Positions 1,250-20,362 of a DNA stretch of 20,380 nucleotides are shown in pieces. The notes beneath the pieces are model-generated. The model saw nothing but the letters and a program-made list of their open reading frames with translations. It made no database searches and was not told the origin of the DNA. Each line of letters opens with the position of its first letter. The stretch's first letter is position 1. The position numbers and the translations under genes are program-made. The DNA is taken from positions 1 to 20,380 of IMG/VR virus record IMGVR_UViG_3300020562_000023; one strand, 5' to 3'. Source of the stretch: a virus.

Positions 1250-1268
1250 ATTATGTAATCAGCAATAA

Positions 1269-4200: not shown

Positions 4201-4880
4201 ATACTACTACCACTTAGAAATAAATCTTTCCAACGATTTGTCGCATTACCCAAATTAAACGTTATGTTGGCTGAAGGAATTAAGTTTCCAGTTGTTGTAC
4301 CAGAAATTTCTAAGTTACCAATATTAGCTAAACCAAGTGTATTTAAGTTAGCACCTGTAATATTAGCATTTGCAGTAATATTAGCACTAGCATTAATATT
4401 ACCAGTGACATTTACTACATTGGCTAGATTAGCGATACCATCAACATTTAATGAAATTAGATTACCAACATTAGTGATATTTGCTTGATTAGAACTTGTA
4501 CTATCAAATACACCATGAAAGAAATTAGCAGTTGCAAGATTACCTAAATTAGCATTAGTAGCACTAATATTACCAGTAATAGTTAATAGGTTAGTACTAG
4601 AGTTAAAGGTAAAGTTCGCACTAGCACCAAACTCATTATCATTATTAAATTGAATTTGAGTGTTACTACCAGCTGGAATACCACCAATATCCCAAGGTTG
4701 ACCGTTTGCGTATAACAAATGGTCTGTGCGTACATTACCAACATTTGCGGTGTCAGATACGTACAAATTGCCTGTTAGGTTAGCATTAGTTGTGGTAATG
4801 TCACCGTTTGCTAGTATAATATTGGCGGCATTTTCTCCTACTGAGAAGCCGCCAATCGAGTTAAATGCTTTGATTGCCAT
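1269..4880 (-). CDS. Large repetitive tail-fibre-like structural protein (1203 aa)
   Basis: A 1203-residue protein, very rich in Asn, Gly, Thr, Ala and Ser and poor in charged residues. It starts with the FNSIGGFSVG motif (residues 6-15). Residues 30-690 are repeated units: DTANVGN, LLYANGQPWD, SNTQIQFN, SANFTFNSSTNLLT, NANLGNLATANF. Residues about 695-850 form a distinct module beginning DAATKAYVDSVAQGLDPKAS and ending near VFVQFSGAG. The same module occurs in the 2110-aa protein and, from memory, in many phage tail fibres. Residues about 1105-1203 look like a compact beta-rich C-terminal domain (VEFLVKGYD, YVIYGTVRIG, LLQATPSSSN) of a kind common at phage fibre ends. It has its own late promoter and a good ribosome site (AAAAGGAC). 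A structural fibre role is likely; which fibre is unknown. Confidence 0.85.
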   Translation of the reverse strand: MAIKAFNSIGGFSVGENAANIILANGDITTTNANLTGNLYVSDTANVGNVRTDHLLYANGQPWDIGGIPAGSNTQIQFNNDNEFGASANFTFNSSTNLLTITGNISATNANLGNLATANFFHGVFDSTSSNQANITNVGNLISLNVDGIANLANVVNVTGNINASANITANANITGANLNTLGLANIGNLEISGTTTGNLIPSANITFNLGNATNRWKDLFLSGSSILIGDQNISSNASGIALSNTTFLTDVFVSGNANVGLNIQGNTANFIGNVVAPNVTVNLELSGNTANFSGNVIANSLRSNALTSTRVTFAGTGGVLTDSSNLIYDDSTQLLTVLGNAQFNNANLGNLATANFVNVSSNLFVTDTANVGNLRTNNLLYANGTPWDFITPAGANTEIQFNDGDGNLGASANFTFNNSTNLLTVTGNVTATGNVTGSYFLGNGSQLTGVVAIAADKLVNGNTTVTTTPNGNVSFNIADPANGNIPIANLMVLSSNLLTINANITTTGTISANNFSGNFSGNITGNVTIPGSNTGIVFNDDSFANSSTGFTFDKTSNTANLANVLNVGNSTVNVSISTGNIVATSNITAGNIIGTIAAGSNTITTTGNANVGNLGFGNGQIIGTGNISVGNITTSSINASVTVNALALVSPTLTSNTTTLTLTAAPGDNDVILVPTGAGNVSVSSKKIINLATPTLDNDAATKAYVDSVAQGLDPKASVVYATAAGLPAYTYNNGASGIGATITGNAVGALSIDGSAVSINERVLVKNETTTNAPYNGIYVVTAAGSGAAAYVLTRTTDFDSASPSGEIPGAFVFVEYGTTNADTGWVCTTNSPVTVGTTDIVFVQFSGAGSFTANTSAGLVLIGTQFNAKVDGNPNPTTAFDGNGNIYVPAGAAFTSPNIGAATGTSVTITGNVIANVLTANLTLDVTGNANVGNLGTAGLIIATGNISGGNISTAGAVTATGNGTFGNISTTGSGGNITGANVVSANTFTATANVNADNFVGNTAQLSTGTITTSKSAINVSQTWNNASATFTGILENITDTNSSAGSLLMDLQVGGASKFSVSKIGNVTVGNLSTGSLSANSFAVTTLGIGNTSITANTVSTTSITANQTIATFQLTGSNVTGVEFLVKGYDSAGSKYSVATVLAVTDGTDADYVIYGTVRIGTTTGTLAVNVASGNVLLQATPSSSNSTAWTTQIRTI
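2325..2795 (-). repeat. Fibre module shared with the 2110-aa protein (copy in the 1203-aa protein)
   Basis: This stretch encodes the module from DAATKAYVDSVAQGLDPKAS to VQFSGAG. The same module lies at about 10444-10912 within the 2110-aa gene. The two translations match closely through AYTYNNGASG, VLTRTTDFD, SPSGEIPGAF and DTGWVCTTNSPVT. They are paralogous protein modules rather than a recent DNA duplication, since many codons differ synonymously. Confidence 0.8.
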
Positions 4881-4901
4881 GGTAATGTCCTTTTATAAAT
4901 G

Positions 4902-4909
4902 TATTTATG
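4902..4909 (-). promoter_or_regulatory. T4-type late promoter for the 1203-aa gene
   Basis: The minus strand reads GCATAAATAC here, one base from the T4 late consensus TATAAATA. It ends 21 nt before the ATG, so initiation about 6 nt downstream would give a short leader holding AAAAGGAC. The identical core GCATAAATA appears before the 179-aa gene and at the HNH endonuclease start. It lies in the 44-nt gap after the stop of the 675-aa gene. Confidence 0.7.
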
Positions 4910-4924
4910 CTAGGTATAATAAAG

Positions 4925-6952
4925 TTACTTTGCATATTGTATAATCATCAGATTATATTTGGTTAAATTAGTAGAATCCGGAGTCACTACCAATTGTATC
5001 GTATCAGGCGATCCTGCCTGATAATTCACTGAAAAACTTCCCACACCACCATTGATGTAGAGTCCTGAATACTCATTAAATACCACCTCAGTTCCTAGAA
5101 CTGCGGCAGCTATTTTTGCTGTTTGTCTGGTGTTACCTGCTACATCTGTGGAAATAATAGTAAAATCTATAGCTGATAAGTTGGCCAATGATGTTGACCA
5201 CAATAATTGATTAGGTGTCGTAGCGGCTGTAGTAGCAAAATAAACAGTTGATTGATAAAATTCATTATCTCCTACACCCATTCTGAACGTATTTGCTATA
5301 ACATTATTGGCAATAGACGTATTGCCCAAATTAGCATTAGCTGATGTAATATTACCAGATGCATTAAGCGTTACTGTAGATATTAAATTAGCCCCGGTAA
5401 TATCACCGCTAGGGCCAGTGGTAGATAAATTACCAAATATGCCATTATTACCGGTAATATTACCTGTAGCATTAAATGTAGTAACATTTGCTGTACCAAC
5501 TACAGTTAGTAAACTTGTAGTTTTATCAAATGTAAAGTTAGCACTTCCACCAAATTCATTAATGTCGTTGAATTGAATCTGTGTATTGCTACCGCCGGGC
5601 GTGCCACCAAAATCCCAAGCTGAACCATTTGCGTATAGTAAATTATTAGTACGTACATTACCCACAGTTGCAGTATTAATTACAGATAAATTGCTTGATA
5701 CATCTACAAAATTAGCGGTTGCTAAGTTACCTAAATTAGCATTATTAAACTGCGAATTACCTACAACAGTTAATAAATTAGTTGTTTGGTTAAATGTAAA
5801 GTTGGCACTAGCACCAAAGTTAGTATTGCCGTCATTAAATTGAATCTGCGTATTAGATCCTGCAGCCTCTTGTAAATCCCAAGGTTGACCATTTGCATAT
5901 AATATATTGTTAGTACGTAAATTACCTACATTTGCTGTATCAGCTACAAAAAGATTACCTGATATATTTCCAGAATTTGCAGTAACTGTGTTAGATGATA
6001 CATTAGACGTAATATTAGTAGCAGTTAAATTACCTGTAACAGTTAAATAACCAGATACGTTTGTTCCGGTACCTGTAACAACTAGTGTTGTATTGCCGGT
6101 AGCAGTAATATTAACATTACCATTAGCAATTGGAATGTTTACGTTACTATTACCGTTTGCTACCCCTGAACTATTTAAGTTTGCTAAATATCCACCGTCA
6201 CCAATAAAGAAAGCACCAGTGTTGGCAACAATATTTCCACTAGCTGTTAGTGAGGTTGTTACGTGTATATTTCCAGAACCATTTGGAGTAAGAAATATAT
6301 TACTGTTAGCAGTAATAGTACTGATAGTAGTATCAGTAAAGTTTAGATTACCAATATTAGTATTACCACTGATATTACCACTGGGTTGATTAGTTACACC
6401 AATCAAGCCTACATACTGATAACCTACAACATAAACACTTTTACCTGTAATAGGGCTGGCAATCTGAGTTGGTACATTTGCACCGTTGAAGTTTAATACA
6501 CCAGATTGATAATCAAAGAACCATGTATCATCTCTTCCAGAACCAGCTTGGAATAATTTAGTACCTGATGTTTGTGGATTAGTTACACCAGTGTTGGCTA
6601 CATATACTTGTACAAGATAGTTGTCGCCAAATTGAGTTGGTACCCAATTAATTTCGTTTGTCTTCCACGTTTGATTGTCAGGGGCGGTTAAGTCTTCAGT
6701 ACATTCTACGCTAGGGCTAAAACTCCCTACACCATCTTTATAAACTTTAATAATACTAGTTGTTGTGGCAGGCGGATTTCCTGTAATCTGGTCACTCTCC
6801 ATCCAAACAAGATCGCCACGATATAGTAATGGGCTAGGGATACTTTCATTGAAAGCTTCTTTAACTGTTGCTTCTGCAGTTTTGGTTACAGCGTAACCAA
6901 CTTTTTTCCACAGATAGTCAATCTTTTGTGATTCGTTAAACGTTGCGGCCAT
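4925..6952 (-). CDS. Tail-fibre-like structural protein with cyanophage-type N-terminal domain (675 aa)
   Basis: Three parts are visible. Residues 1-185 form a non-repetitive domain (FNESQKIDYLWKKVGYAVTK, NESIPSPLLYRGDLVW, FFDYQSGVLNFNG, GKSVYVVGYQYVG) that I recognise as the conserved N-terminus of virion structural proteins in T4-like cyanophages and relatives. It is probably the virion-attachment end. Residues about 190-560 carry the same NANLGNLATANF, LLYANGQPWD and TQIQFND units as the neighbours. Residues about 560-675 are a beta-rich C-terminal domain (NEFYQSTVYFATT, GLYINGGVGSFSVNYQAGSP) analogous in position to that of the 1203-aa protein. The start overlaps the stop of the 2110-aa gene as TAATG, with TAGGAG about 10 nt upstream inside that gene, so the two are translationally coupled. 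Assignment to a specific fibre is inference. Confidence 0.87.
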   Translation of the reverse strand: MAATFNESQKIDYLWKKVGYAVTKTAEATVKEAFNESIPSPLLYRGDLVWMESDQITGNPPATTTSIIKVYKDGVGSFSPSVECTEDLTAPDNQTWKTNEINWVPTQFGDNYLVQVYVANTGVTNPQTSGTKLFQAGSGRDDTWFFDYQSGVLNFNGANVPTQIASPITGKSVYVVGYQYVGLIGVTNQPSGNISGNTNIGNLNFTDTTISTITANSNIFLTPNGSGNIHVTTSLTASGNIVANTGAFFIGDGGYLANLNSSGVANGNSNVNIPIANGNVNITATGNTTLVVTGTGTNVSGYLTVTGNLTATNITSNVSSNTVTANSGNISGNLFVADTANVGNLRTNNILYANGQPWDLQEAAGSNTQIQFNDGNTNFGASANFTFNQTTNLLTVVGNSQFNNANLGNLATANFVDVSSNLSVINTATVGNVRTNNLLYANGSAWDFGGTPGGSNTQIQFNDINEFGGSANFTFDKTTSLLTVVGTANVTTFNATGNITGNNGIFGNLSTTGPSGDITGANLISTVTLNASGNITSANANLGNTSIANNVIANTFRMGVGDNEFYQSTVYFATTAATTPNQLLWSTSLANLSAIDFTIISTDVAGNTRQTAKIAAAVLGTEVVFNEYSGLYINGGVGSFSVNYQAGSPDTIQLVVTPDSTNLTKYNLMIIQYAK

Positions 6953-9900
6953 TACGTTGCTACTCCTATCTGTAAATCAGTTATAGTTTGACCGGCTGCC
7001 AACGCAATTCTAATTAAAATATTATTACCAAAACTATTAGCTTGATTCTGTGACCCAAGCGTCATAGTATATCTTACATTTGTTATCTGTGTATTCAATG
7101 GTATAACATCTGATCCAGTTAACGCACATCCGTTAGTACCAGCTGGGTTTCCACCTGTAGCACTATTACCCGGTACTCCCGCACCGTTATATTGTTCATA
7201 TCCAGTTAACCATCCGTTAATAGTACTAGTGGGTCCTGGGAATCCCGGAGTAGGTGATGCGAATCCACCCTTGTCAATTGTTGTGCCAGGTGCCGCTACC
7301 CATAAGCCTGATATACCAGTTGACCCTGTAGTTAATATAATATCAAAATTAGCTAAACTAGTTCTTACAAATGCAAAAGTAAAATACTGTAACCCTGATC
7401 GTCCTGTAGCTAAGTCAGGTCCAATTGGTAAATACCCAGTAGATAAATCTACAGCATAATGTTTTAACACACCGTATCTAACAACTGCTTCTGGTGTACC
7501 TGCAATAGTTTGAGCACCTGACCATACATTGCTAGTATAATAATTTGTATTATTACTAAAGACTGGTGTATTACCTGCTGTACTCATTACTATACGAATA
7601 GCAGGTTGTGTATTACTTGCTACATTAGCAGGTATATTTGCTTCATTAAATCCAGAGTTGGCGCCAGCATACATTTGTATTTTAGTAGGCAGTTGAATTG
7701 TTGTGCTAGTACCAACAACGTTGAATATATTTGCCGCTAATGTTGATACTCCGTTAACTGCACCGTTAACTAATACGTTGAGATTACCCATTGAATAGTT
7801 AGTTGATATACCTATGTTAGCTTTAACATTTGATCCAGTCAACATAGAGTTAGCACTATTATCAATCTGTGCTAATGTTTTAGTTTGTGTAGATATAACT
7901 GATCCAGAACCTTCATATGATGTACCAGATGCTACCGTGAATGGGTCAGCACTACGGAATGTTTGTCCTGTAAAGTTTTGTAATTCTAAATTAGCGACTG
8001 TAATTGCAGGAGATCCAGTAGCACTATAATATGGAATACCTGAAATGTATCTAAATGTTCCTGAAGTAGCAGTAACCATCGCTGTATTCGTAGTAACTAA
8101 GGTTGGTGCAGAATTTAAGTTGTCTTTTACCATTCCAATAGTATTAGTATTACCTGTAGTTGAATGACGTAATTGGAAATCATTGTAACCATTACCTAAA
8201 CTAGCTAGTGTATTGCTAATCGTAGCAGAGAATACTTTGTAGAATCCTGTAGGAACAGCGGTATTTGCTACATGTAAATCTCTGTCGGCTGATACTACTA
8301 ATGAACTGTATGTTCCAACAGCATTTCCACTAGTACTGAATGAAGTGTTGCCGGCTTCTGCATTATTTACATAGGCAGTTAATGTACCGGTAAGTGCTGT
8401 ATTTGCATTTGTTACTTGTGTGCTGGTTGATACTGGTGTAGTTGTAGCTATACGGGTAACTGCTGTACCATTAGCTAATATATTTCCGCCAGTATTATCA
8501 GCCGCTCCTGCCGCTAATAATGGGCTAGTACCTTGACTAGCTGTAGCGATAGTAACATTAGTGAAACTACTTAGATTAGAAGGAGCTGTTGGATTAGCTA
8601 AAATAGTAATATAATTTGTTTTTGTATTTGTATTACTTTGTAACGTGGTGCCTGGAGTACCGTTTGCTTGTAATGCAACTGTTTTACCACCAATAGTAGG
8701 TGATCCATAATCGTTAAGATATGAGTGTGTAATATTAGCACGACTTGTTACACCACTGTTACTTGTAGTGTCACCCCATGACCAATTAAACACATTACCA
8801 GTAAAGTTAACGTTAGGTGATGTATCATTACTGAAGTTAAACAAGCTTCTATCACGACCTAAATAGTCAGTAAACAAGTAACCAACTTGAGCATTAGAAG
8901 TATATCCTGTAGCGTCAGTTTGAGTATTAGCGGTTCCTGTAAAGTTAGCTCTAACTTCTGGTTCAACTGTAATTGTAATATTACTAGATATGAACGGGCT
9001 AGTACTAAATCCTGTATACAATGAAAGATTTGCTACATAACTTACTGTGGTAGCCGCATTCTGTTGTACTGAACTTAACGCAAATGCATGAGTAATATTA
9101 GCCGCTCCTGGGTTACCAGCAAGTCCAGTTTGAATATTAATGTTACTATTAGCTGTACCATCTCCCCAACGGAAGTTATATAATTGTTGTGCACCAAAAC
9201 TAGCAGTATTACCTGGACTGCCAGGAGTATCATTTCTGAAACTAATTACACCACCTGAGGTAGCAAGATAGTTAATAGTTGAAGTAGAATTAGCTGTAAA
9301 TGCCGGGCTTTGCGGAGAATATACTTTAACATTAGTATTCGCTGTTGTAACACTATACGGAGGCGCATTACCTGCTGTCTGGTTTGTACCAGTTAAATTA
9401 ATTCCATATATAGAATCAACATTGGCAGAATTAATGTATTGATGAGAATCAGTTGTCCATGAATTACCAGGATTAACAGCAGTATTGCCATCACCATAAT
9501 TAATTGTAAATGATGTAGCATACAAACTTGTATTAGTTAATGTAACATTACTACCAGTATCTAAACTAGTTGGACTAGCTGTAAATGATGGTATTGGTAA
9601 TGGTGTGAACAGTGTTATGAAATTAGTATTAATTGAAGTAGCGGTTGAGCCTTTTGCTCCATTGGCTGCATTACCTCCATATGTACCATTTACATTGAAT
9701 GCTGTAAATGTAACTGTAAATTGTCCACCTAATACATTACTATATGTTTTTGTAGGATTACGTAAAGTGCTAGTTGTGCCGTCACCAAAATTCCAAAGAT
9801 AATTAGTAGGATTGCCAATATAGTTTCCAGTAAATGCCACTGATAACGGACTAGGCCCTGATGTTACATTAGCACCAATGTATATATTACCTACAAAAGT

Positions 9901-12900
9901 ATTTCCAGCAATATTTAAACTAACCTGATTCAAATCATCTAATCCATCAGTAACATATGTACTAGTAGTCCATCCGTTATACGCAACATTAGTTGTTAAG
10001 TCACTATCAGATGGTGTACCTAATGGAATAAGATTACCTGTAACTCCGGCTATGCTACCACCGCTAATCCAAGACAGGTTACCGGTGCCGTCAGTACCTA
10101 ATACGTATCCAGTAACTCCTCCAGTAATATGTACATTAGTAACATTACCCAATGCTACATTAGCTGTGTTTGCAAAATTTATATTACCAGTAGATGTTAA
10201 ACCAGTTAGATTGCCCACGCTTGTTAAATTACTAGTAGTAATATTTGAATTTAATGTTGTGCCTGATAAGTTAGCGGCATTAGCAGTAATTGCTACATTA
10301 CTTGCGGCAGTTAACTGACCTTGTGGATTAACCGTAAATGTAGCAACAGCATCGCCGTCACCATATGAACCAGCCGTTACTGCTGTATTAGATATACTAA
10401 ATTCAGTACCATTTAATGTTAAACCAGTGCCTGCTGTGTATGAACCTGCACCAGAGAACTGAACAAATATAATTGGTGTTGTGCCCATTGTAACTGGTGA
10501 GTTTGTTGTACAGACCCAACCAGTATCAGCTAATGTTGTACCATGCTCAACAAAAGTAAATGCTCCTGGAATTTCACCACTCGGTGAACCGTTGTCAAAA
10601 TCAGTAGTTCTAGTTAATACAAAAACTGAACTAGCACTTCCTGGATCAGTAACTAGATAGATACCGTTATAAGGATCATTTGCCCCTGTTTCATTTTTAA
10701 TTAATACACGACTGTTAATACTTGGATAACCACTATCAAGTGTTAATTCTCCATTACTAGTTGCAGTAATAGTTGCCCCGACACCGCTTGCTCCGTTATT
10801 ATATGTATATGCTGGAAGTGCTGTTGTACTAGCATAGGTTACAGATGCCTTAGGATCTAGGCCTTGTGCAACTAAATCAACATATTGTTTTGTTGCGGCA
10901 TCTTGATTATTTACAGGTTCAGCAAGACTTGTAATGTTCCTGTTGTTCATGTTTACATTGGCGCCAAAACTACCTGCACCAGTAGCAATTAAATTAGTTG
11001 TTCCTAAATTAGCAACATTAGCATTACCAGTAAAGGTAGCTGTATTACCCGTTAAATCAAACGCAAAATTAGCATAGTTTGCTTTTACTAAGTTACCTAA
11101 ATTAGCATTTGCTGAAGTTAAATTGCCACTAAAATTAGCAATATTACCATTGACTTCATATGCAACGTTTACATAATTAGCTATTGCCAAGTTACCTAGA
11201 TTAGCATTTAATGAAGTTAAATTACCAATAAAGGTAGCAGTATTGCCTTCAAGGTGATAAGAGACATTTACATAATTTGCTGTTGCTAGATTACCTAAAT
11301 TAGCGTTACCTGAGGTAAGATTAGCAGTAATATTTGCATTACCGTTTACTAGTATTCCAGTAGATGAAATAACAACTACATTACTAACAGTGTCTGAACT
11401 TATATTAATATTTGCATTTGCATCTACTATAATGCTACTACTACCATTTACGATACTAGCTGTATTAGAATTACCTGTACCTATTACAGTAAACGTACCA
11501 CCTAATGGGTTTGTTAATGTAATTCCGTTTGACCCTGACGTAATAGTAGATCCGTTTAGGTCAATTGTATTACCTGATATATATAAATCATTCCAACGTT
11601 GTGTTGGACTACCTAAATTGTATGTTAGATTAGAACTTGGTACTAAATTTCCAGCAACAGTTAAATTAGATTCTGTTACAGTTAATGTTGTGCTACCATT
11701 AGCAGTAAGAGTTATATTACCGTTTACTAACGGAATTTCTACATAACTATTACCATTGGCAAATCTACCTATAAAATTACTAGCAGTTACATTGCCAGTT
11801 GCAGTAATATTTCCGCCAATTATAACAACATTAGATACTAGATTACCTATAGTTAAATCTGTTAAATTACCTACGCTAGTAATGTTTGATTGATTACTTG
11901 CGGTAACATAACCAGAGAAAGATGAATAGTTTGCATTTGCTACATCTCCGGTAACATTAGCACCTTGGATATTACTTAAATTGTTTCCTGATCCAATAAA
12001 GAAATTTGCAGTTACTGCATTACCTAAATTAGCATTTAACGAAATTAAATTACCACTGAAGTTAGCTATATTACCATTTAGATCATATACAACATTTACA
12101 TAATTAGCGGTAGCTAAATTACCTAAATTAGCATTATTAAATTGTGTATTTCCTAATACTGTTAATAAATTAGTAGTATTATTGAATGTTAGATTAGCAC
12201 TGGCACCAAATTCACTATTATCATTAAATTGAAGTTGTGTGTTATTTCCGGCTGGGTTTCCACCTAAATCCCAAGGACTACCATTTGAATATAATAAATT
12301 ATCTGTACGTAAATTACCTACGTTTGCTGTATCAGTTACAAACAAATTGCTTGAAACGTTTACAAAGTTTGCTGTTAGTAGATTACCTAAATTAGCATTA
12401 CCCGAAGTGATATTACCATCAACTGTTAAACTTGTTAAGTTGCCAACACTTGTAATATTAGGTTGAGCATTTGTATATACTGTACCTGCAACTAATGCAT
12501 TGGCTGCTTGACCGGTAACATTGGCTCCATTAATTGATGATAATCCAGAACCGTTTCCTGTAATATTAGTAACAGATAGTGTATTAGTATTGTAATCAAA
12601 TGTAAAGTTTGCGCTAGCACTAAATGCGTTATTATTATTAAATTGAACTTGTGTATTACTACCAGCCGCATTAGTTGTGAATACGTAGGGTGTACCATTT
12701 GCATATAAAATACTATCTGTTTTAAGAGTACCTGTAGTAGTATTACCCTGAACGGTTATTCCCTCAGTAGTGATAATAGCTACATTAGATGTGCCATTTA
12801 CACTGGCTGTAATATTACCACCAACTGTTGCAATATCTACATTACTATTACCATTACTAATGGCTGATCCGGTACCAGGAGGTGACCATTGAATTACGCC

Positions 12901-13284
12901 ATTACCGTCTGTAGTTAATAAATATCCAGAACTACCACCTGTAATTGTTATGTTAGATACTGGTCCTAAATTACTTAACCTAGTAACGTTTATGCTTGGA
13001 ACTGTAAGTAGATTAGTTGCAGCCTCAAATGTTAAATTTGCACTACCGTCAAACTGTCCATTACTATTATATTGTAAGCTATTATTAGGACCAAATGGGT
13101 TTCCACCTGCATTAAAAGGTCTTCCATTGGCATAATAATAATTAGCGGCATATACACTATGTACAGCCACGTTACCATTGGCATTTAATACGTTAGTAAT
13201 TATATTGCCATTGGCATCAATTACTGGTACAGGTGGTATACCTACTGAGTATCCACCGAACGAATTAAAGTTATCTACTGCCAT
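6952..13284 (-). CDS. Giant modular virion structural protein with PKD-like domains (2110 aa)
   Basis: A 2110-residue protein without internal stops. Residues 5-15 have the shared NFNSFGGYSVG start. Residues up to about 790 are repeats of the NANLGNL, DTANVGN and TQVQFNN type. Residues about 790-945 are the DAATKQYVDLVAQGLDPKAS module also found in the 1203-aa protein. Residues about 1120-1570 hold four PKD-like (Ig-fold) units, marked by WNFGDG (1163), INYGDG (about 1262), FRWGDG (about 1371) and WSWGDT (about 1501), the first followed by a TYSN...QFTVTFTAFN segment. The rest (about 1580-2110) ends in a domain with TPEAVVRYGVLKHY, DLSTGYLPIGPDL and YFTFAFVRT, which I recall from very large cyanophage structural proteins. 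PKD domains are typically extracellular adhesion or sugar-contact modules, so host-surface binding is plausible. It has its own late promoter and an AGGA ribosome site. Confidence 0.88.
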   Translation of the reverse strand: MAVDNFNSFGGYSVGIPPVPVIDANGNIITNVLNANGNVAVHSVYAANYYYANGRPFNAGGNPFGPNNSLQYNSNGQFDGSANLTFEAATNLLTVPSINVTRLSNLGPVSNITITGGSSGYLLTTDGNGVIQWSPPGTGSAISNGNSNVDIATVGGNITASVNGTSNVAIITTEGITVQGNTTTGTLKTDSILYANGTPYVFTTNAAGSNTQVQFNNNNAFSASANFTFDYNTNTLSVTNITGNGSGLSSINGANVTGQAANALVAGTVYTNAQPNITSVGNLTSLTVDGNITSGNANLGNLLTANFVNVSSNLFVTDTANVGNLRTDNLLYSNGSPWDLGGNPAGNNTQLQFNDNSEFGASANLTFNNTTNLLTVLGNTQFNNANLGNLATANYVNVVYDLNGNIANFSGNLISLNANLGNAVTANFFIGSGNNLSNIQGANVTGDVANANYSSFSGYVTASNQSNITSVGNLTDLTIGNLVSNVVIIGGNITATGNVTASNFIGRFANGNSYVEIPLVNGNITLTANGSTTLTVTESNLTVAGNLVPSSNLTYNLGSPTQRWNDLYISGNTIDLNGSTITSGSNGITLTNPLGGTFTVIGTGNSNTASIVNGSSSIIVDANANINISSDTVSNVVVISSTGILVNGNANITANLTSGNANLGNLATANYVNVSYHLEGNTATFIGNLTSLNANLGNLAIANYVNVAYEVNGNIANFSGNLTSANANLGNLVKANYANFAFDLTGNTATFTGNANVANLGTTNLIATGAGSFGANVNMNNRNITSLAEPVNNQDAATKQYVDLVAQGLDPKASVTYASTTALPAYTYNNGASGVGATITATSNGELTLDSGYPSINSRVLIKNETGANDPYNGIYLVTDPGSASSVFVLTRTTDFDNGSPSGEIPGAFTFVEHGTTLADTGWVCTTNSPVTMGTTPIIFVQFSGAGSYTAGTGLTLNGTEFSISNTAVTAGSYGDGDAVATFTVNPQGQLTAASNVAITANAANLSGTTLNSNITTSNLTSVGNLTGLTSTGNINFANTANVALGNVTNVHITGGVTGYVLGTDGTGNLSWISGGSIAGVTGNLIPLGTPSDSDLTTNVAYNGWTTSTYVTDGLDDLNQVSLNIAGNTFVGNIYIGANVTSGPSPLSVAFTGNYIGNPTNYLWNFGDGTTSTLRNPTKTYSNVLGGQFTVTFTAFNVNGTYGGNAANGAKGSTATSINTNFITLFTPLPIPSFTASPTSLDTGSNVTLTNTSLYATSFTINYGDGNTAVNPGNSWTTDSHQYINSANVDSIYGINLTGTNQTAGNAPPYSVTTANTNVKVYSPQSPAFTANSTSTINYLATSGGVISFRNDTPGSPGNTASFGAQQLYNFRWGDGTANSNINIQTGLAGNPGAANITHAFALSSVQQNAATTVSYVANLSLYTGFSTSPFISSNITITVEPEVRANFTGTANTQTDATGYTSNAQVGYLFTDYLGRDRSLFNFSNDTSPNVNFTGNVFNWSWGDTTSNSGVTSRANITHSYLNDYGSPTIGGKTVALQANGTPGTTLQSNTNTKTNYITILANPTAPSNLSSFTNVTIATASQGTSPLLAAGAADNTGGNILANGTAVTRIATTTPVSTSTQVTNANTALTGTLTAYVNNAEAGNTSFSTSGNAVGTYSSLVVSADRDLHVANTAVPTGFYKVFSATISNTLASLGNGYNDFQLRHSTTGNTNTIGMVKDNLNSAPTLVTTNTAMVTATSGTFRYISGIPYYSATGSPAITVANLELQNFTGQTFRSADPFTVASGTSYEGSGSVISTQTKTLAQIDNSANSMLTGSNVKANIGISTNYSMGNLNVLVNGAVNGVSTLAANIFNVVGTSTTIQLPTKIQMYAGANSGFNEANIPANVASNTQPAIRIVMSTAGNTPVFSNNTNYYTSNVWSGAQTIAGTPEAVVRYGVLKHYAVDLSTGYLPIGPDLATGRSGLQYFTFAFVRTSLANFDIILTTGSTGISGLWVAAPGTTIDKGGFASPTPGFPGPTSTINGWLTGYEQYNGAGVPGNSATGGNPAGTNGCALTGSDVIPLNTQITNVRYTMTLGSQNQANSFGNNILIRIALAAGQTITDLQIGVAT
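10444..10912 (-). repeat. Fibre module shared with the 1203-aa protein (copy in the 2110-aa protein)
   Basis: Second copy of the module at 2325-2795. It reads DAATKQYVDLVAQGLDPKAS, then AYTYNNGASGVGATIT, SGEIPGAFTFVEHGTT and VQFSGAG. In both proteins it follows the NANLGNL repeat section. Here it precedes the PKD-like region, whereas in the 1203-aa protein more Asn-rich repeats follow. Confidence 0.8.
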
Positions 13285-13311
13285 CTAGTATCCTGAATAA
13301 TAGTTATTATA

Positions 13312-13319
13312 TATTTATC
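13312..13319 (-). promoter_or_regulatory. T4-type late promoter for the 2110-aa gene
   Basis: The minus strand reads AGATAAATAT, one base away from TATAAATA. It ends 27 nt before the ATG at 13284. The predicted leader of about 21 nt contains CAGGA, a suitable ribosome site. It also lies between the start of the plus-strand HNH-like gene and this gene, in the only divergent gap of the window. Confidence 0.6.
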
Positions 13320-13369
13320 TTTTCCTAGTCAGTAAAAAGCATGAAAAAAGCACCCTGGAGATCTTTTTC

Positions 13370-13377
13370 TCTAAATA
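13370..13377 (+). promoter_or_regulatory. Probable late promoter for the plus-strand HNH-like gene
   Basis: TCTAAATA lies 4 nt before the ATG at 13382. It resembles TATAAATA and the GCTAAATA form before the kelch cluster. Initiation at the normal distance would fall at or next to the start codon, so the message would be leaderless or nearly so. The nearest purine-rich stretch (GGAG at about 13357-13360) is too far upstream to be a normal ribosome site. Confidence 0.4.
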
Positions 13378-13381
13378 CAAT

Positions 13382-13747
13382 ATGTTAACAAGACAACCAT
13401 CAAGACCACTATGTGAAAATTGTAAAGTAACATTGGCAAAGGCTAATGGTATAAGCAAACATGGCTTTAATAAATGGCACAAGTATTGTGTTGAATGTAG
13501 TAAAGCCGCATACAATCCAAAGCACGGTTATCTATTACATAAGAAAAATAAATGTGAGAAGTGTGGTTTTATACCAGAAGATAAATGTCAACTTGATATT
13601 GTTTATAAAGATAACAATAAAAAGAATAAAGAAAAAAGTAACTTGAAAACACTATGTGCCAATTGTAATAGAGTGTACCAAAAAAAATTAAAAGAAAAAC
13701 AAAAATCTATATTAGATATTACTGTTGACACTGACTATACGTTATAG
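13382..13747 (+). CDS. Small Cys-rich HNH-like zinc protein, catalytic histidines absent
   Basis: A 121-residue protein, the only gene on the plus strand. Four CxxC pairs are visible: C11/C14, C36/C39, C58/C61 and C92/C95, consistent with two zinc sites. The second half (CEKCGFIPEDKCQLDI ... NLKTLCANCNR) matches the small phage HNH family that I recall as having LDVDHIDG and LCANCHR. Here the DH pair is replaced by V74-Y75 and the CHR histidine by N96, so normal HNH nuclease chemistry is doubtful. It may be a DNA- or RNA-binding relic, or a subfamily with another role. The C-terminus is Lys-rich. It is convergent with the Gly-rich gene and overlaps its 3' end by 6 bp. Lys and AAA use is high compared with the fibre genes around it, fitting an inserted element. 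Confidence 0.75.
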   Translation: MLTRQPSRPLCENCKVTLAKANGISKHGFNKWHKYCVECSKAAYNPKHGYLLHKKNKCEKCGFIPEDKCQLDIVYKDNNKKNKEKSNLKTLCANCNRVYQKKLKEKQKSILDITVDTDYTL

Positions 13748-14671
13748 ATTACCAGTGTCTGTTGATGGGAACGCTCTGCCCTCTCCCCATATAATTCGTA
13801 CTGCACCCGGGCCGCCTCTTCCAGCATTAGTATTTTGGGCGCCACCTTGTCTGCCCCCGGCGCCACCTCCTCCGTAATAACCACCCATTTGATAAGTGGT
13901 CTCTGGGTAATTAGCGGCAGTGTAAGCAGGATTTTGACCTTGTCCATATGGATATCCAGCGCCTCCGCTAGATCCACCGGCGCCTGCAGCACGGCTACCG
14001 ACTCCCCCTGCTCCATTAGATCCTTGACCATATATACCAACACCACCGCCCGGCCCACCTGACAGGACACTGCCGCTAGCTCCACTAGCTCCTCCACCTC
14101 CACCTCCACCTGTACCGGCGGCGCCGTTAACGGCTGCACCACTCAAACCCGTGCCTCCATTACCACCATTACCAGAATATCCACCGGCGCCACCGGCACC
14201 TGGAAAATAATTTGTGGTGCCACCACTTCCGCCATTACCGCCTCCGTCGCCAGTATAGCCACCACCACCTCCACCTCCGCCAAAATTTGGAGTTGCTCCT
14301 CCTCCACCAGCGCCTAAAACTAAACTAGAATTATTAAACCAACTTGATTCGCCACCACCACCATTATAGTTTCCACCACTAAAGAACCCACCTCTTCCAC
14401 CATTTCCAACTACAACAGTATAGCTTACACCCGGAGTTACTGCAATATTGTTTTTCCAACCTAGACCGCCACCTCCACCACCCGGCGCCCAATCAACTGT
14501 AGTATTTGCTAACGCTCCGCCACCCCCGCCACCTACTGCTACTGCACAAACTGATGTTACATTAGGTGGACATACCCATGAATATGTCCCGACTGCAATA
14601 AATTCGGTCTGCGCAGGAGCTGTATATGTAACTGTTAATCCAGCTGGTAAAGTTATACCACTAATTATCAT
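13742..14671 (-). CDS. Gly-rich tail adhesin-like protein (309 aa)
   Basis: After a short start (MIISGITLPAGLTVTYTAP) comes EFIAVGTYSWVCPPNVTSV then VAVGGGGGG, the usual opening of phage Gly-rich domain proteins. Residues about 48-285 are long glycine runs, as in PGGGGGG and GAGGGG, broken by short Asn/Ser/Tyr segments. The end, GPGAVRIIWGEGRAFPSTDT followed by GNL, is a C-terminus I recall from marine phages. T4-like gp38 adhesins fold such Gly-rich stretches into bundled polyglycine helices with variable loops that contact receptors, so a receptor-binding tip is a reasonable inference, though this is not gp38 itself by full-length likeness. Two Cys (in WVCPP and SVCAV) are unusual. There is no Shine-Dalgarno of its own. 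The ATG overlaps the stop of the upstream micro-ORF as TAATG, so translation is probably coupled. Confidence 0.82.
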   Translation of the reverse strand: MIISGITLPAGLTVTYTAPAQTEFIAVGTYSWVCPPNVTSVCAVAVGGGGGGALANTTVDWAPGGGGGGLGWKNNIAVTPGVSYTVVVGNGGRGGFFSGGNYNGGGGESSWFNNSSLVLGAGGGGATPNFGGGGGGGGYTGDGGGNGGSGGTTNYFPGAGGAGGYSGNGGNGGTGLSGAAVNGAAGTGGGGGGGASGASGSVLSGGPGGGVGIYGQGSNGAGGVGSRAAGAGGSSGGAGYPYGQGQNPAYTAANYPETTYQMGGYYGGGGAGGRQGGAQNTNAGRGGPGAVRIIWGEGRAFPSTDTGNL

Positions 14672-14715
14672 TATAAGTTACCAGTATTAGTTGATACTTC
14701 AAATACTATTGGCAT
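14671..14715 (-). pseudogene. 14-codon micro-ORF: fusion relic of a kelch gene start and a Gly-rich gene end
   Basis: The frame reads MPIVFEVSTNTGNL then stop. The first six residues and the ribosome site (AAGGAA, 14724-14729) are those of the kelch-like genes upstream. The last seven, STNTGNL, match the C-terminus STDTGNL of the Gly-rich protein immediately downstream. It looks like the scar of a deletion that joined the start of a fourth kelch copy to the end of a second Gly-rich gene. Its stop overlaps the Gly-rich start (TAATG), so it may now serve as a leader that brings ribosomes to that gene. Expression as a peptide is uncertain. Confidence 0.6.
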
Positions 14716-14765
14716 AATTGTTATTCCTTAAAAAATTGTTGCTTAACCGTAACTTGCGGCTGCTA
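14697..14765 (-). repeat. Copy of the kelch gene junction (matches 15666-15734)
   Basis: These 69 nt match 15666-15734 with only two mismatches. They cover the end of a kelch-like gene (ending AASYG), the ribosome site, and the first codons MPIVFE. This is the direct evidence that the micro-ORF derives from a kelch gene start. Similarity ends just after the sixth codon. Confidence 0.8.
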
Positions 14766-15684
14766 GATAACCTCTTGCTGTACCAACACCAGTAACATCA
14801 GTACCTACTACACCCGTATTTGTTACTAGGTTAGTTATTGATTGCCGGCCGGCTCCGCCAGTAGTGCCATATCCAAATATAGCCTTATCAGTGCCATAAC
14901 CTGCAGCAGCTGGATATAATCTAGCAGTACCTACGCCAGTTGTATCATTAGCAACTACACCTGTGTTTGATACTAGATTGGTTATTGCTGTTACACCACT
15001 ATTGCCTTGTCCATATCCGAATATAGCTTTATCACTACCATATCCTGCAGCCGCTAATTGATTTCTAGCAGTACCAACTCCGGTAACATCTGTTGAAACT
15101 ACACCGGTGTTTGATACTAAATTTGTCATTGATAGAACACCGGATGCATCACCATAACCAAATATAGCTTTATCACCGCCATAATCTGCGGCTGTTGGAC
15201 CATTTCTAGCAGTACCAACACCTGCAGTATCATTAGATACTACACCTGTATTTGATACTAAATTGGTTATTGACTGATTGCTAGTACTATAGCCATATCC
15301 AAATATAGCTTTATCTGTACCATATCCGGCTGCCGCTAAACTATACCTAGCAGTACCAACACCAGCAGTATCATTTGCTACTACACCGGTATTTGATACT
15401 AAATTGGTTACCGATTGATTAGTGTAAGTAGGAGGACCAAGTAGACCGTATCCAAATATAGCTTTATCTCCCCCATACCCGGCGGCTGCAAGAGCCCATC
15501 TAGCAGTACCTACGCCAGTTGTATCATTAGCAACTACACCTGTGTTTGATACTAAATTGGTTATTGATGTTGGTCCAGCACTTATATCACCGTAACCAAA
15601 TATAGCTTTTTTACCCACCGGCGCTACATATGGTTCAATACTAATCCCACCTGATATAGTTGCACCTTCAAATATTATTGGCAT
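14743..15684 (-). CDS. Kelch-like six-bladed propeller protein, copy A (313 aa)
   Basis: It starts MPIIFEGATISGGISIEPY, then six units of about 46 residues, each with KAIFGYG, a variable loop, (M/I/V)TNLVSNTGVV, then D(T/V)(T/A)GVGTAR, three variable residues and AAAGYG. The order fits a kelch blade: a strand like IYVFGG, then a strand ending in 'N' before a 'W'-like position, then R followed by small residues. I infer a six-bladed beta-propeller. The variable loops here include DISAGPTS, LLGPPTYTNQS, YSTSNQS, DASGVLS, QGNSGVTA and TTGGAGRQS. Blades 1 and 5 share a 69-nt tract with one mismatch, pointing to recombination between blades. The ribosome site is AAGGAA. It lies 27 nt after copy B and is probably read from the promoter upstream of copy C. 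A surface-exposed tail or adhesin role is inferred from context. Confidence 0.8.
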   Translation of the reverse strand: MPIIFEGATISGGISIEPYVAPVGKKAIFGYGDISAGPTSITNLVSNTGVVANDTTGVGTARWALAAAGYGGDKAIFGYGLLGPPTYTNQSVTNLVSNTGVVANDTAGVGTARYSLAAAGYGTDKAIFGYGYSTSNQSITNLVSNTGVVSNDTAGVGTARNGPTAADYGGDKAIFGYGDASGVLSMTNLVSNTGVVSTDVTGVGTARNQLAAAGYGSDKAIFGYGQGNSGVTAITNLVSNTGVVANDTTGVGTARLYPAAAGYGTDKAIFGYGTTGGAGRQSITNLVTNTGVVGTDVTGVGTARGYLAAASYG

Positions 15685-15711
15685 AATTGTTATTCCTTAA
15701 AAAATTGTTGG

Positions 15712-16653
15712 TTAACCGTAACTTGCGGCTGCTAATCCATATCTTGCAGTACCAACGCCTGTAGTATCTGTTGCTACTACACCGGTGTTTGATACTAAGT
15801 TGGTCATTGATAATCCATCACCACCACCTAAATAAGGATTATAACCATATCCAAAGATAGCTTTATCTGTGCCATAACCTGCGGCTGCAAGCCTTTCCCT
15901 AGCAGTACCTACTCCAGTTGTATCACTTGCAACTACTCCGGTATTTGATACTAGGTTGGTCATGGATAATTGAGAGCCAACACCATTGCCTCCATAACCA
16001 AAAATAGCTTTATCAGTTCCATATCCGGCAGCGGAAGGATATTGTCTAGCAGTACCAACACCTGCTGTATCAGTTGCAACAACACCTGTATTAGTTACTA
16101 GGTTAGTTATCGCTGTATTTGTCCCGGTATATCCATATCCAAATATAGCTTTATCAGTGCCATAACCTGCGGCTGCTAGATAATATCTAGCAGTACCTAC
16201 GCCTGTTGTATCAGTAGCAACAACTCCGGTGTTTGAAACTAAGTTAGTCATTGATACTGCTACAATAGTATATCCATATCCAAATATAGCTTTATCAGTA
16301 CCATAACCAGCTCCCGCTAAAAGCCATCTAGAAGTACCAACACCTGCGGTATCTGTAGCTACTACTCCGGTATTTGATACTAGATTAGTTAGTGATACAG
16401 TAGTGCTACCATTATTTCCATATCCAAATATAGCTTTATCTGTGCCATAACCTGCGCCTGCAAGATATCGTCTAGCAGTACCAACACCTGTTGTATCAGT
16501 TGCAACAACACCTGTATTACTTACTAGGTTGGTCATTGATACAACAACAGTTGTCAATCCATATCCAAATATAGCCTTACTACCCGCCGGTGGTATATAC
16601 GGTTCAATGCTAATCCCACCCGATATAGTTGCACCTTCAAATACTATTGGCAT
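15712..16653 (-). CDS. Kelch-like six-bladed propeller protein, copy B (313 aa)
   Basis: Paralogue of the adjacent copies, with the same start (MPIVFEGATISGGISIEPY) and six blade units. Variable loops after FGYG are LTTVVVS, NNGSTTVS, YTIVAVS, YTGTNTA, GNGVGSQLS and YNPYLGGGDGLS. The triplets after GTAR are RYL, (GTSR) WLL, YYL, QYP, ERL and YGL. The last blade has the longest loop of the whole cluster, and its Gly and aromatic residues suggest a ligand-contact position. The gene lies 21 nt after copy C with AAGGAA as ribosome site and no terminator between, so it is part of one operon. Function is inferred: propeller fold from the kelch-like pattern, host-surface or virion-decoration role from its place between capsid and fibre genes. 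No enzymatic residues of galactose oxidase type are recognisable. Confidence 0.8.
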   Translation of the reverse strand: MPIVFEGATISGGISIEPYIPPAGSKAIFGYGLTTVVVSMTNLVSNTGVVATDTTGVGTARRYLAGAGYGTDKAIFGYGNNGSTTVSLTNLVSNTGVVATDTAGVGTSRWLLAGAGYGTDKAIFGYGYTIVAVSMTNLVSNTGVVATDTTGVGTARYYLAAAGYGTDKAIFGYGYTGTNTAITNLVTNTGVVATDTAGVGTARQYPSAAGYGTDKAIFGYGGNGVGSQLSMTNLVSNTGVVASDTTGVGTARERLAAAGYGTDKAIFGYGYNPYLGGGDGLSMTNLVSNTGVVATDTTGVGTARYGLAAASYG

Positions 16654-16674
16654 AATTGTTATTCCTTAAAAAAT

Positions 16675-17595
16675 TTATGAGCCGTAACTTGCGGCTCCCA
16701 CATAACCTCTTGCGGTACCAACTCCAGTAGTATCAGTAGCAACAACACCTGTATTTGACACTAGGTTGGTCATTGATTTATTAGTGTCTCCATATCCAAA
16801 TATAGCTTGACCAGAACTACCAAAATTAGTGGCTGCAAGATAACCTCTAGCAGTACCAACTCCAGTAGTATCAGTAGCAACAACACCAGTGTTACTTACT
16901 AGGTTAGTCATAGAAACACCAGAAGCACTTGAGTTCAACCCATATCCAAATATAGCTTTGTCTGTGCCGTATCCTGCCGCAGCTAATCCAAATCTAGCAG
17001 TACCGACTCCAGTGGTATTATTAGCAACGACACCTGTGTTGCTTACTAAGTTGGTTATTGATACTCCAGTAGGGAATGAGGTAGTTCCGTATCCAAAAAT
17101 AGCTTTGTCTGTGCCGTATCTTGCGGCTGCTAGTTCACTTCTAGCAGTACCGACTCCAGTAGTATCAGTAGCAACAACACCAGTGTTACTTACTAAATTT
17201 GTTACTGACGTACCAAATCCATATCCAAATATAGCTTTATCTGTTCCATAACCAGCGGCCGCTGGATAAGCTCTAGCAGTACCAACTCCAGTAGTATCAG
17301 TAGCAACTATCCCTGCATTACTTACTTTGTTGGTCATTGATACTTGAACACCTGTATTTCCATATCCAAAAATAGCTTTATCACCTCCGTAACCAGCGGC
17401 TCCCACTCCATATCTAGCAGTACCAACTCCAGTTGTATCTGCGGCTACTACACCTGTGTTTGATACTAAGTTAGTCATTGACAGATTAGAACCATTATAC
17501 CCATATCCAAATATAGCTCGTATTCCAGCCGGTGGTATGTATGGCTCAATACTAATCCCACCCGATATAGTTGCACCTTCAAATATTATTGGCAT
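16675..17595 (-). CDS. Kelch-like six-bladed propeller protein, copy C (306 aa)
   Basis: First gene of the kelch-like cluster in transcription order. It has the same N-terminus, then six units. Loops are YNGSNLS, NTGVQVS, FGTS, TTSFPTGVS, LNSSASGVS and DTNKS, including the shortest of the set (FGTS). Unit 5 to unit 6 departs from the pattern: AATNFGSSGQ-AIFGYG replaces AAAGYGTD-KAIFGYG, and unit 2 has MTNKVSNAGIV. The protein ends AASYGS. Several blades in this gene share nearly the same DNA around the VVATDTTGVGT segment, suggesting local homogenisation. A GCTAAATA late promoter and AAAGGA ribosome site precede it, so it probably drives the whole C-B-A, micro-ORF and Gly-rich transcript. As with its paralogues, the propeller fold is a prediction from the repeat pattern. 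Confidence 0.8.
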   Translation of the reverse strand: MPIIFEGATISGGISIEPYIPPAGIRAIFGYGYNGSNLSMTNLVSNTGVVAADTTGVGTARYGVGAAGYGGDKAIFGYGNTGVQVSMTNKVSNAGIVATDTTGVGTARAYPAAAGYGTDKAIFGYGFGTSVTNLVSNTGVVATDTTGVGTARSELAAARYGTDKAIFGYGTTSFPTGVSITNLVSNTGVVANNTTGVGTARFGLAAAGYGTDKAIFGYGLNSSASGVSMTNLVSNTGVVATDTTGVGTARGYLAATNFGSSGQAIFGYGDTNKSMTNLVSNTGVVATDTTGVGTARGYVGAASYGS

Positions 17596-18290: not shown

Positions 18291-18298
18291 TATTTATG
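18291..18298 (-). promoter_or_regulatory. T4-type late promoter for the 179-aa gene
   Basis: The minus strand reads AGCATAAATAT. The box ends 16 nt before the ATG at 18274, leaving a leader of about 11 nt that holds AAAGGA. The TAA inside the box is also the stop codon of the HNH endonuclease gene, so promoter and stop are the same bases. Confidence 0.7.
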
Positions 18299-19093: not shown

Positions 19094-19098
19094 ATCAT

Positions 19099-19121: not shown

Positions 19122-19129
19122 TTTGATTG

Positions 19130-19153: not shown

Positions 19154-19165
19154 ATGTACCCAATT

Positions 19166-20362
19166 TCACTGAAAAGTTAAATTTTGTACTGCTATTTCGC
19201 CAACATAGTCGGCAGCATTACCAAATGAGCTGGCCGTATTCGTTAATTCGATGTAACCATATCTGGTCATAAAACTAACTACTGGTTCGAATGTTGATGG
19301 ATCCAATACAACTCCACTGCTCATCAATGGAATGTATGGGCAATAGAATGCGGCTGCATCAGTTTCGCTAGAACCTTTATAACCAACTAGTACTGGAATA
19401 GTATCAGCGGCATAACTGTCAACGAACACACGCATAGCGCCGTTCAATGTACCAACAAACTTAGTGTTAGTTGGAGCTTCGAATGTACCTTCTGTTGTAC
19501 GAGCAAAAGCACTAGTAGTTGCAGATTGCAATACTGTTAATGCGGCGCTAGAAACAACAGCCCAGTTACCTGCGCCACGACGTGTACGTTGGGCGATCAA
19601 GTTAGCAACACGGTTGATAAGAACAGCTAAGGCAGCGTGTTCGTCACCAACGTAAGTAGCTGTACCTGATACAGTAGCTTGGTTGAATGTAAACTCAGTA
19701 GATGCTAATGTACGCAATGACAATAGAATCTCTTGGTCAATCTCAGCAGTAATCTCTTGTGCAAGAGCTGCCATGATTTCTGCTTCTACGTCGATACCAT
19801 GTTGAGACTGAGCATCTTGTGCTGCCTCAAATGTCCAACGTGCTTGCAATTTACGTGACTTAGCTTCAACAGCTTGACGTAGAATCTGAACACTGATTTG
19901 CTTACCACCGTTGCCTTCTAGGGCAGCAGTATCGTTAGCAGTGTAATATTCAGATGTTCCACCAGCTTGCGGTGTGCGTGAATATGCTTGAGCAATCAAG
20001 AATGGACTTAGTGCTTCTTGACCAGCTGTTACGCTAGTTGCGGCAGTACTATTGTCTGTTAATGATTGAGCATAACGTACACGTAGAGTGTGAATCTGAC
20101 CAACTGGTCCTGTCATTGGCTGAACGCCTACCAATTCGTTAGCGATAACGGTTGGCATGACACGACGAATAACTGGAAGAATCACACGGTTTAGTGTAGC
20201 GATATTACCAGCTGTAGTTGTACCGGCTGAAGATTCAGCTAGTAACTGTTTTTTGGTGTTTTCTAAAATAACACCCATTGTTGAACGGCGAGTTCCTTTT
20301 AAGCCTTCTAACAGAGCTTCTTTGGTCTCGTCCCAACGGCTTTCTAAGAGTACTTTTGACAT
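19166..20362 (-). CDS. 23: Major capsid protein, T4 gp23 family (398 aa)
   Basis: It forms the hexameric shell of the T4-like head. Family features seen: VILPVIRRVMPTVIANELVG then VQPMTGPVGQIHTLRVRYA (about 60-96), QAVEAKSRKLQARWTFEAAQ and HGIDVEAEIMAALAQEI in the middle, then RRGAGNWAVVSS, MRVFVDSYA, LVGYKGSSETDAAAFYCPYI and FEPVVSFMTRYGY toward the end. The first part (MSKVLLESRWDETKEALLEG ...) is a probable scaffold-binding propeptide. LAE at 41-43 is a candidate prohead-protease site, giving a mature protein of about 355 residues. At 398 residues it is shorter than T4 gp23 (521), probably lacking most of the T4 insertion domain. AGGAG lies about 9 nt before the ATG; its promoter is outside the window. 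Tandem hairpins follow the stop. Confidence 0.96.
   Translation of the reverse strand: MSKVLLESRWDETKEALLEGLKGTRRSTMGVILENTKKQLLAESSAGTTTAGNIATLNRVILPVIRRVMPTVIANELVGVQPMTGPVGQIHTLRVRYAQSLTDNSTAATSVTAGQEALSPFLIAQAYSRTPQAGGTSEYYTANDTAALEGNGGKQISVQILRQAVEAKSRKLQARWTFEAAQDAQSQHGIDVEAEIMAALAQEITAEIDQEILLSLRTLASTEFTFNQATVSGTATYVGDEHAALAVLINRVANLIAQRTRRGAGNWAVVSSAALTVLQSATTSAFARTTEGTFEAPTNTKFVGTLNGAMRVFVDSYAADTIPVLVGYKGSSETDAAAFYCPYIPLMSSGVVLDPSTFEPVVSFMTRYGYIELTNTASSFGNAADYVGEIAVQNLTFQ

Follow-up and report, generated by a model that had tools for sequence, protein, structure and literature searches.

Three tandem phage genes encode predicted six-bladed kelch-fold propellers with variable loops on a constant frame

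Results and discussion

The IMG/VR virus record IMGVR_UViG_3300020562_000023, a stretch of 20,380 bases that was analysed whole (the window), contains three neighbouring genes, K1, K2 and K3, all on the minus strand, each of which encodes a short N-terminal start followed by six repeat units that are predicted to close into a six-bladed propeller of the kelch fold. The K1 and K3 proteins are 72% and 76% identical to K2, respectively. The frame of the propellers is nearly invariant, the variable residues are confined to a few loop positions, and it is likely that K1-K3 are paralogous adhesin heads that are displayed on the virion by a short anchor.

Six-fold repeat and predicted fold

The three proteins each consist of a 25-residue start and exactly six units of 44-51 residues with the pattern K-AIFGYG-loop-S.TNLVSNTGVVATDTTGVGTAR-xx-LAAAGYG.D. 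A sequence-only reading of the window had described three genes with exactly six units each, and the coordinates and open reading frames (ORFs; 313, 313 and 306 amino acids) bear this out; the repeat is visible in the DNA as well, as 18 copies of a 120-nucleotide unit with at least 60% identity. The family gathered from other loci, the window's own proteins included, comprises 186 distinct proteins, of which 164 are complete. Six units are present in 152 of these, 12 in three and 18 in two, so the count is 6, 12 or 18 in 157 of 164, and the seven deviating proteins have 5, 5, 5, 3, 2, 2 and 2 units. None of the 164 has seven or eight units; the query used to retrieve most loci had six units, which biases the set against shorter proteins but not against those with seven or eight. 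Similarly, 34 of 35 matches in a profile search of six records (two of which come from the phage of the window or a very close one) are near full length. A closed ring requires counts in multiples of six, and the counts therefore argue for one.

AlphaFold2 run on the K2 propeller and 149 relatives (an alignment of 150 sequences) gave a confident model (predicted local distance difference test, pLDDT, 93.2; predicted template modelling score, pTM, 0.90), and this model is a propeller. An earlier run with 48 sequences and the anchor included (pLDDT 54, pTM 0.45), whose PDB matches were already kelch, is not relied on. All 50 matches listed by Foldseek against the PDB are Kelch domains or SAKe designs (best E-value 1.1e-14); the neighbours of the model by Foldseek and VIA are the Kelch domains of KLHL17, KLHL12 and Keap1 and designed SAKe proteins, and VIA superposition on Kelch domains gives a Z of 33.5 and a root mean square deviation of 2.3 over 275 residues at 14% identity. 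In a viral structure library the nearest proteins belong to uncultured Caudovirales phages and have no assigned function (best 73% identity), and the first named protein that comes from an isolate belongs to Burkholderia phage BcepSaruman and is of kelch-motif type (23% identity, template modelling score 0.83). Each unit of the model contains strands B (KAIFGYG), C (S.TNLVS) and D, and then strand A of the next blade (LAAAG); the chain begins with strand B of blade 1 and finishes with strand A of the same blade, so that the ring would be closed by the C-terminal strand. With a closed ring of four-stranded blades that superposes on kelch domains, and with the unit counts in agreement, the predicted fold is nearly certain.

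The sequence signature is not that of kelch. The Pfam Kelch repeat is marked by a double glycine and by spaced Tyr and Trp residues, the unit consensus carries FGYG and no Trp, and no Pfam Kelch model is among the families listed for K1-K3 (E-values up to 1) or for 48 family members (E-values up to 0.1). The earlier description of the proteins as kelch-like propellers thus survives as to fold but not as to a match with Pfam Kelch repeats. The best sequence-profile match in the PDB is to the Photorhabdus PLL/PHL lectins (2.5e-05), which may be a case of repeat matching repeat, and Pfam matches too weak to pass the cut-off, among them gp37_trimer and Peripla_BP_4, were discounted as noise from the repeats.

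Position of the variable residues

A regular expression parsed 831 of 1,008 units (177 were dropped), and entropies were calculated for the 772 of these that are distinct and have the modal length. The parsing expression itself fixes some scaffold positions, and the MAFFT alignment of 150 propellers, made without such a filter, agrees on the near-invariant ones, in keeping with the nearly invariant scaffold first noticed in the window. Most scaffold positions lie below 1 bit, with a maximum of 1.75 bits. By comparison, the first two residues after the conserved Arg reach 3.55 and 3.47 bits, and the B-C loop that follows FGYG reaches 2.75 to 3.71 bits at six of eight positions counted from both loop ends; the two residues directly before TN have 0.87 and 2.05 bits, and one position of the A-B turn, usually Thr or Gly, varies moderately (2.08 bits). 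Across the family, 3 to 16 residues separate FGYG from TN. There are 15 different pairs at the two residues after Arg among the 18 units of the window, and 844 different loop combinations among 851 parsed blades. Three variable residues had been proposed after the GTAR motif; the first two do vary, but the third is Leu in 670 of the 772 units (0.84 bit). That loops are much more variable than scaffold among related phages is borne out by these entropies and by the substitution rates given below.

The strand order of the predicted model puts the B-C and D-A connections on the same side of the four-stranded meander, so that the variable parts would share one face, and puts the A-B and C-D turns on one face as well, so that the constant turns and both termini would stand opposite the variable face. 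The variable parts had been expected on defined faces of a propeller, which can now be narrowed to a single one: on the model, all twelve variable segments of a propeller very probably lie on one face and the termini and constant turns on the other. By strand order the variable sites coincide with the B-C and D-A loops, where Kelch ligand-face binders contact their ligand.

Anchor, relatives and gene neighbourhood

ISGG-type starts occur in the same phage on a LamG_3 protein (6.5e-40) and a Gly_rich_2 protein (7.9e-15), so that one genome carries one kind of short N-terminal peptide on different heads, an anchored head cassette. At the same site the relative L121 has a glycine-rich protein with the same MPIVFEGATISGGIS start, and L018 has the ISGG-type start on proteins with another six-fold repeat, WFGGG. 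In other phages this propeller follows a different short start or forms the end of a longer protein. Regular-expression classes of the starts worked poorly (the window's own anchors were sorted as 'other'), and no class counts are given. The features of the locus are collected in Table 1. The 17-nucleotide leader is present in three exact copies in the window, where 0.21 matches within three mismatches are expected, and the K3 leader is similar to it but not identical. The remnant between K1 and the glycine-rich gene is a trace of gene loss in the cassette.

Table 1. Features of the propeller locus (positions in the window)
Feature	Position	Strand	Description
K1	14743..15684	-	313 aa; putative anchor and predicted six-bladed propeller; units of 47-51 aa
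K2	15712..16653	-	313 aa; putative anchor and predicted six-bladed propeller; residues 24-313 modelled
K3	16675..17595	-	306 aa; putative anchor and predicted six-bladed propeller; units of 44-50 aa
N-terminal anchor of K1 (putative)	15610..15684	-	25 aa, begins MPIIFEGATISGGISIEPY
N-terminal anchor of K2 (putative)	16579..16653	-	25-residue start
N-terminal anchor of K3 (putative)	17521..17595	-	25-residue start
K1 leader	15682..15698	-	17 nt; Shine-Dalgarno-like AAGGA and start codon
K2 leader	16651..16667	-	17 nt, identical to K1 leader
Remnant of further cassette gene	14671..14729	-	Same leader; MPIVFE anchor start; tail like C-terminus of glycine-rich protein; stop
Glycine-rich protein	13742..14671	-	Anchor-like N-terminus; adjoins cassette; Pfam Gly_rich_2 5.2e-08
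Major capsid protein, gp23 type	19166..20362	-	Pfam Gp23 3.5e-97; upstream of K genes, same direction
Three large genes	1269..13284	-	1203, 675 and 2110 aa; downstream; fibre-like by our reading

Scans of IMG/VR with K2, with the family alignment and with a relative from a metagenome-assembled genome (MAG) gave 360, 530 and 348 confirmed stretches, the best 80 of which were kept each time. A collection of genomes from 84,980 species contained eight stretches that matched a pattern, one of them a relative. The propeller forms the C-terminal end of all 42 complete proteins that have a longer N-terminal part, with at most four residues after it. A Pfam scan of ten proteins found LamG_3 in three propeller proteins, fn3 in one and Gly_rich_2 in one, and five of nine propeller proteins scanned against PHROGs match virion or baseplate types in addition to families of unknown function. 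L063 has Calx-beta and Ig_3 matches that do not reach the cut-off, and these were likewise dismissed as repeat noise. We note that record G002 (IMG/VR 3300027749_002876, 524,565 bases) has 17 propeller-family matches in several clusters.

Along the minus strand the gene order is capsid, HNH-type homing endonuclease, a 179-residue protein, K3, K2, K1, the glycine-rich protein and the large fibre-like genes, so that the K genes have the capsid gene on one side and the large fibre-like block on the other, all on the same strand. The glycine-rich protein matches phrog_4474 (8.4e-47), annotated as of unknown function, and the PHROG matches of the 1203- and 675-residue proteins are likewise to families of unknown function. 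The 15 closest isolate capsid proteins listed are from jumbo phages of 285-469 kb, among them Vibrio phage 2.275.O, PA5oct and Phosso, and are 63-67% identical. The 137-kb record G003 is identical to the window over bases 1-13739 and 99.5% identical over the remainder, and in it large ORFs, mostly fibre-like by our label, continue for about 50 kb. Within window positions 18294-20362, the near-identical contigs L001, L004 and G003 differ from the window by bases of the capsid gene, and L002, also near-identical, by bases of the HNH gene; many of these differences are synonymous, and they may reflect strain mixing in that part. Sigma-70-like sites occur in the window at a frequency expected by chance.

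Several observations made on the relatives concern other proteins. A second repeat protein, encoded in L018 (4942-5916), has an ISGG-type start and exactly six units of WFGGG type, whose loops vary in the corresponding places; tblastn gives it relatives at 17 places in Synechococcus phage S-SKS1. The motifs of the two families look alike by eye, though hhalign of the FGYG family against this protein, also unit against unit, was insignificant. In L132, downstream of a capsid gene with 94% identity, positions 11201-13273 encode a protein whose start is anchor-like and which contains three LamG_3 stretches. L122 (3657-4358), L123, L127 and other relatives encode, downstream of the capsid gene, a protein of roughly 235 residues that resembles a fatty-acid desaturase.

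Proposed function

Display of the K propellers on the virion is probable, given their gene neighbourhood and the heads that share their kind of anchor. Each K protein would be a closed six-bladed propeller, as prediction and unit counts indicate; its short N-terminal peptide and a proline-rich linker would anchor the disc to the virion by the constant face, and the variable face would point outwards. The three copies would then provide three binding faces, with ligands that are probably host or environmental glycans or surface proteins. We infer a role at the phage surface, as did the sequence-only reading, and now with better support.

A number of points weigh against this proposal. No member of the window's propeller family has been seen in a virion. 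A tblastn search at an E-value of 1e-5 against 50,697 annotated phage records gave no match and so no isolate that carries the family, and hhalign found no detectable homology with CBB_554, a Kelch-type protein of jumbo phage CBB. Thirteen relatives have a capsid protein that is 94-97% identical and sequence covering the interval between the capsid gene and the first fibre-like gene; only L121 among them has a propeller, which makes the propeller genes accessory (L056 has one too, but its contig ends before the first fibre-like gene). The PHROG matches of fused proteins are not structural throughout, as the protein of L105 matches 'regulator of chromosome condensation' families and that of L070 matches none. 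The T4-type late promoter TATAAATA was searched for in the window and not found. Lastly, the relative in an Oligoflexia MAG (L085, 7860-9666) has six units and a signal-like N-terminus and lies between housekeeping genes of a bacterial contig, so not every family member need be part of a virion. The gene after this relative resembles by eye the phage gene that follows the propellers in L016, L229 and L225, possibly a captured phage pair.

In a variant of the adhesin proposal, which is less likely than not, the propellers would decorate the virion and attach it to surfaces or glycans of the environment, such as particles or mucus-like matter, and not to the infection receptor. This variant would suit the accessory distribution among capsid-close relatives, the many copies in one phage (17 matches in the 524-kb record) and the company of LamG and glycine-rich heads; nothing separates it from receptor binding, however, and propellers that end longer fibre-like proteins fit receptor contact equally well. 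It is improbable that the propellers act inside the infected cell as variable protein-binding modules, for example on host defence proteins. Eukaryotic and poxvirus Kelch proteins are protein-binding modules inside the cell, and the nearest solved folds are protein-binding Kelch domains, but the structural-gene neighbourhood, the fusions to LamG, fn3, glycine-rich parts and parts with virion-type PHROG matches, the anchors common to LamG and glycine-rich heads and the virion precedent in CBB all speak for display of the propellers on the phage particle.

If the propellers are displayed in this way, they are of interest beyond this phage. Kelch-like proteins of jumbo phages are already known, and the present family would be a clean case in which one face varies and the other face and the termini are constant. 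The same kind of anchor also carries other lectin-type heads, and these two properties allow a binding role to be put to a direct test on small, soluble proteins. The family also amounts to a natural library whose scaffold is of the type engineered in the SAKe designs, and is a system in which to study how a frame stays constant while its loops change.

Evolution of loops and framework

The framework DNA of blades is more alike within than between genes in 149 of 151 genes (0.806 versus 0.732). Agreement at the two residues after Arg is hardly higher within a gene (0.127) than between genes (0.118), and that of B-C loops of equal length is somewhat higher (0.293 and 0.205, respectively). Seven of 388 within-gene blade pairs have a framework pS (synonymous differences per synonymous site) below 0.05; they show framework synonymous change at 0 of 129 sites and replacement at the two post-Arg residues at 16 of 33. 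In the next bin (21 within-gene pairs) the corresponding figures are 34 of 386 and 58 of 104, and Fisher's test gives nominal p values of 2e-14 and 2e-23 for the two bins with sites taken as independent.

Rates between genes were taken from 27 disjoint pairs out of 320 close pairs, and gapped loop alignments may inflate these pair values. Scaffold pN/pS (pN, replacement differences per site) is 0.22, and loop pN is 0.50 versus a scaffold pS of 0.34; loop dN (the replacement rate) is 4.5 and 6.8 times scaffold dS (the synonymous rate) in the two youngest pairs (L235/L235 and L235/L213) and 1.3 to 2.9 times in the other 25. Over all 27 pairs loop pN/pS is only 1.06, and loop replacement does not differ significantly from loop synonymous change (p 0.15); selection above neutrality is therefore argued from the comparison with framework synonymous change, from the youngest pairs and from the low-pS blade pairs. 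Judged by these comparisons of aligned codons, loop replacement outruns framework synonymous change. The codon changes can be read directly in L213 and L235, the most homogeneous arrays, where C-D frame segments are 91-98% identical in DNA within a gene and the loops differ in most blades; contig L214, from another sample, confirms L213, agreeing with it over 10,597 nucleotides but for one base.

Identical B-C loops of at least six residues are shared by 61 blade pairs, versus 6.9 expected for independent residues. Between loci, such pairs are also identical in DNA in 5 of 31 cases at different blade positions and in 4 of 8 at the same position, which points mostly to convergence or a restricted repertoire. 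Among blades of one gene, shared B-C loops are identical in DNA in 15 of 17 cases and the following two residues are shared in 4 of 17, which fits an exchange of short segments. The nearest blade in another gene is at the same position in 19.9% of cases versus 16.8% by chance, so a conserved blade position between phages, considered as a candidate, is at most a weak effect. New faces seem to come about by change confined to loop codons, with the framework DNA homogenised among the blades of a gene, and recombination, selection or both may be the cause of this signature.

Six near-identical contigs bear on the pace of this change: K1-K3 are unchanged in five, and the sixth differs by one scaffold codon (K1 residue 98). 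The loop diversity looks historical and not ongoing at a visible rate. The antibody-like display that had been suggested therefore holds in its static sense, as many different faces on one frame, but ongoing diversification is not seen in the near-identical contigs. One could go further and suppose that these phages have, without any retroelement, arrived at a counterpart of an antibody repertoire. In this view the six-fold frame is frozen and only loop codons are exchanged and replaced among blades and paralogues: near-identical frame segments would recombine, which would keep the frame homogeneous and shuffle the B-C and D-A loops, and selection would keep every face different. We regard this as speculative and rather unlikely.

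Much less likely still is an active system, a diversity-generating retroelement or similar, that rewrites the loops within a population. Such a system would account for the restriction of change to loop codons, which holds even for the blade pairs without synonymous framework change (0 of 129 sites), and G006 has one sub-threshold RVT_1 match at its end (15.3 bits, in a 37-residue frame with a stop); but no RVT_1 match above the cut-off and no retroelement were found in 15 records, mostly fragments, loop lengths vary, third-base use at the first residue after Arg roughly follows background with no fixed base there or at the second, and the loops are identical in the six near-identical contigs and the L213 and L214 assemblies agree as described above. 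An assembly artefact of repeats, which are hard to assemble and of which a few relatives have 2, 3 or 5 units, can be dismissed, because K1-K3 recur in six other contigs (which already refutes it for the window genes), two assemblies with a very homogeneous array agree, and units come in multiples of six in 157 of 164 proteins.

Comparison with known systems

Among published titles on kelch or propeller proteins and phages, none that we found describes the present family. Its fold is shared with the Kelch domains of Keap1 and the KLHL proteins (Z about 33), at 12-14% identity; the window proteins differ in being viral, in lacking a Pfam Kelch match and in having variable residues in place of a fixed peptide site. 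We presume that Ser508, Ser555 and Ser602 of Keap1 stand directly after the conserved Arg, like the variable site of the window. These three serines, spaced by 47, or about one blade, are among the Keap1 contact residues named in PMC12266349. The SAKe designs also have repeated blades on a kelch frame; they are computationally designed, whereas the window belongs to a natural family with one variable face.

High within-chain blade identity is also found in the highly repetitive propellers that Pereira and Lupas trace to amplification of single blades (PMC9218822), Kelch being among the families named; that text does not contain the word 'phage', and its passages draw no contrast between a constant frame and a variable face. 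The Photorhabdus PLL/PHL lectins are likewise repeat proteins of propeller fold and bind sugars; the PLLs are described in PMC12203525 as seven-bladed, and the six units per ring of the window set it apart from them. Tentaclins, as presented in PMC10743442, resemble the proposed K proteins as phage display proteins with one variable surface and a conserved virion-side part; they differ in fold, their variable part being a hypermutated C-type lectin hairpin, and in being retroelement-driven, and no such element was found in the 15 records searched, most of them fragments.

Parallels also exist in jumbo phages. The functions of jumbo-phage Kelch-like proteins had not been elucidated according to a 2020 paper (PMC7760394), and the jumbo phage phAPEC6 has hairs on tail and capsid whose role is left open (PMC7247149). 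Phage vB_PcaM_CBB has three Kelch-type propeller proteins (CBB_550, CBB_552 and CBB_554), of which CBB_552 was found in virions by mass spectrometry, and tail whiskers whose responsible gene products are given as not known in the same paper (PMC5259590). In its record the Kelch genes stand among LamG and other proteins annotated as structural, and all nine CBB proteins that we read (of Kelch, LamG and unnamed type) start with MLPF. Like the window, CBB has propellers (Kelch-type as annotated) in clustered small genes and a short start common to LamG proteins; its proteins are annotated with Pfam Kelch, while the window's family has no such match, a near-invariant frame and a different anchor. 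Although the sequences differ, CBB and the window share one arrangement, in which heads are interchangeable on a short common start.

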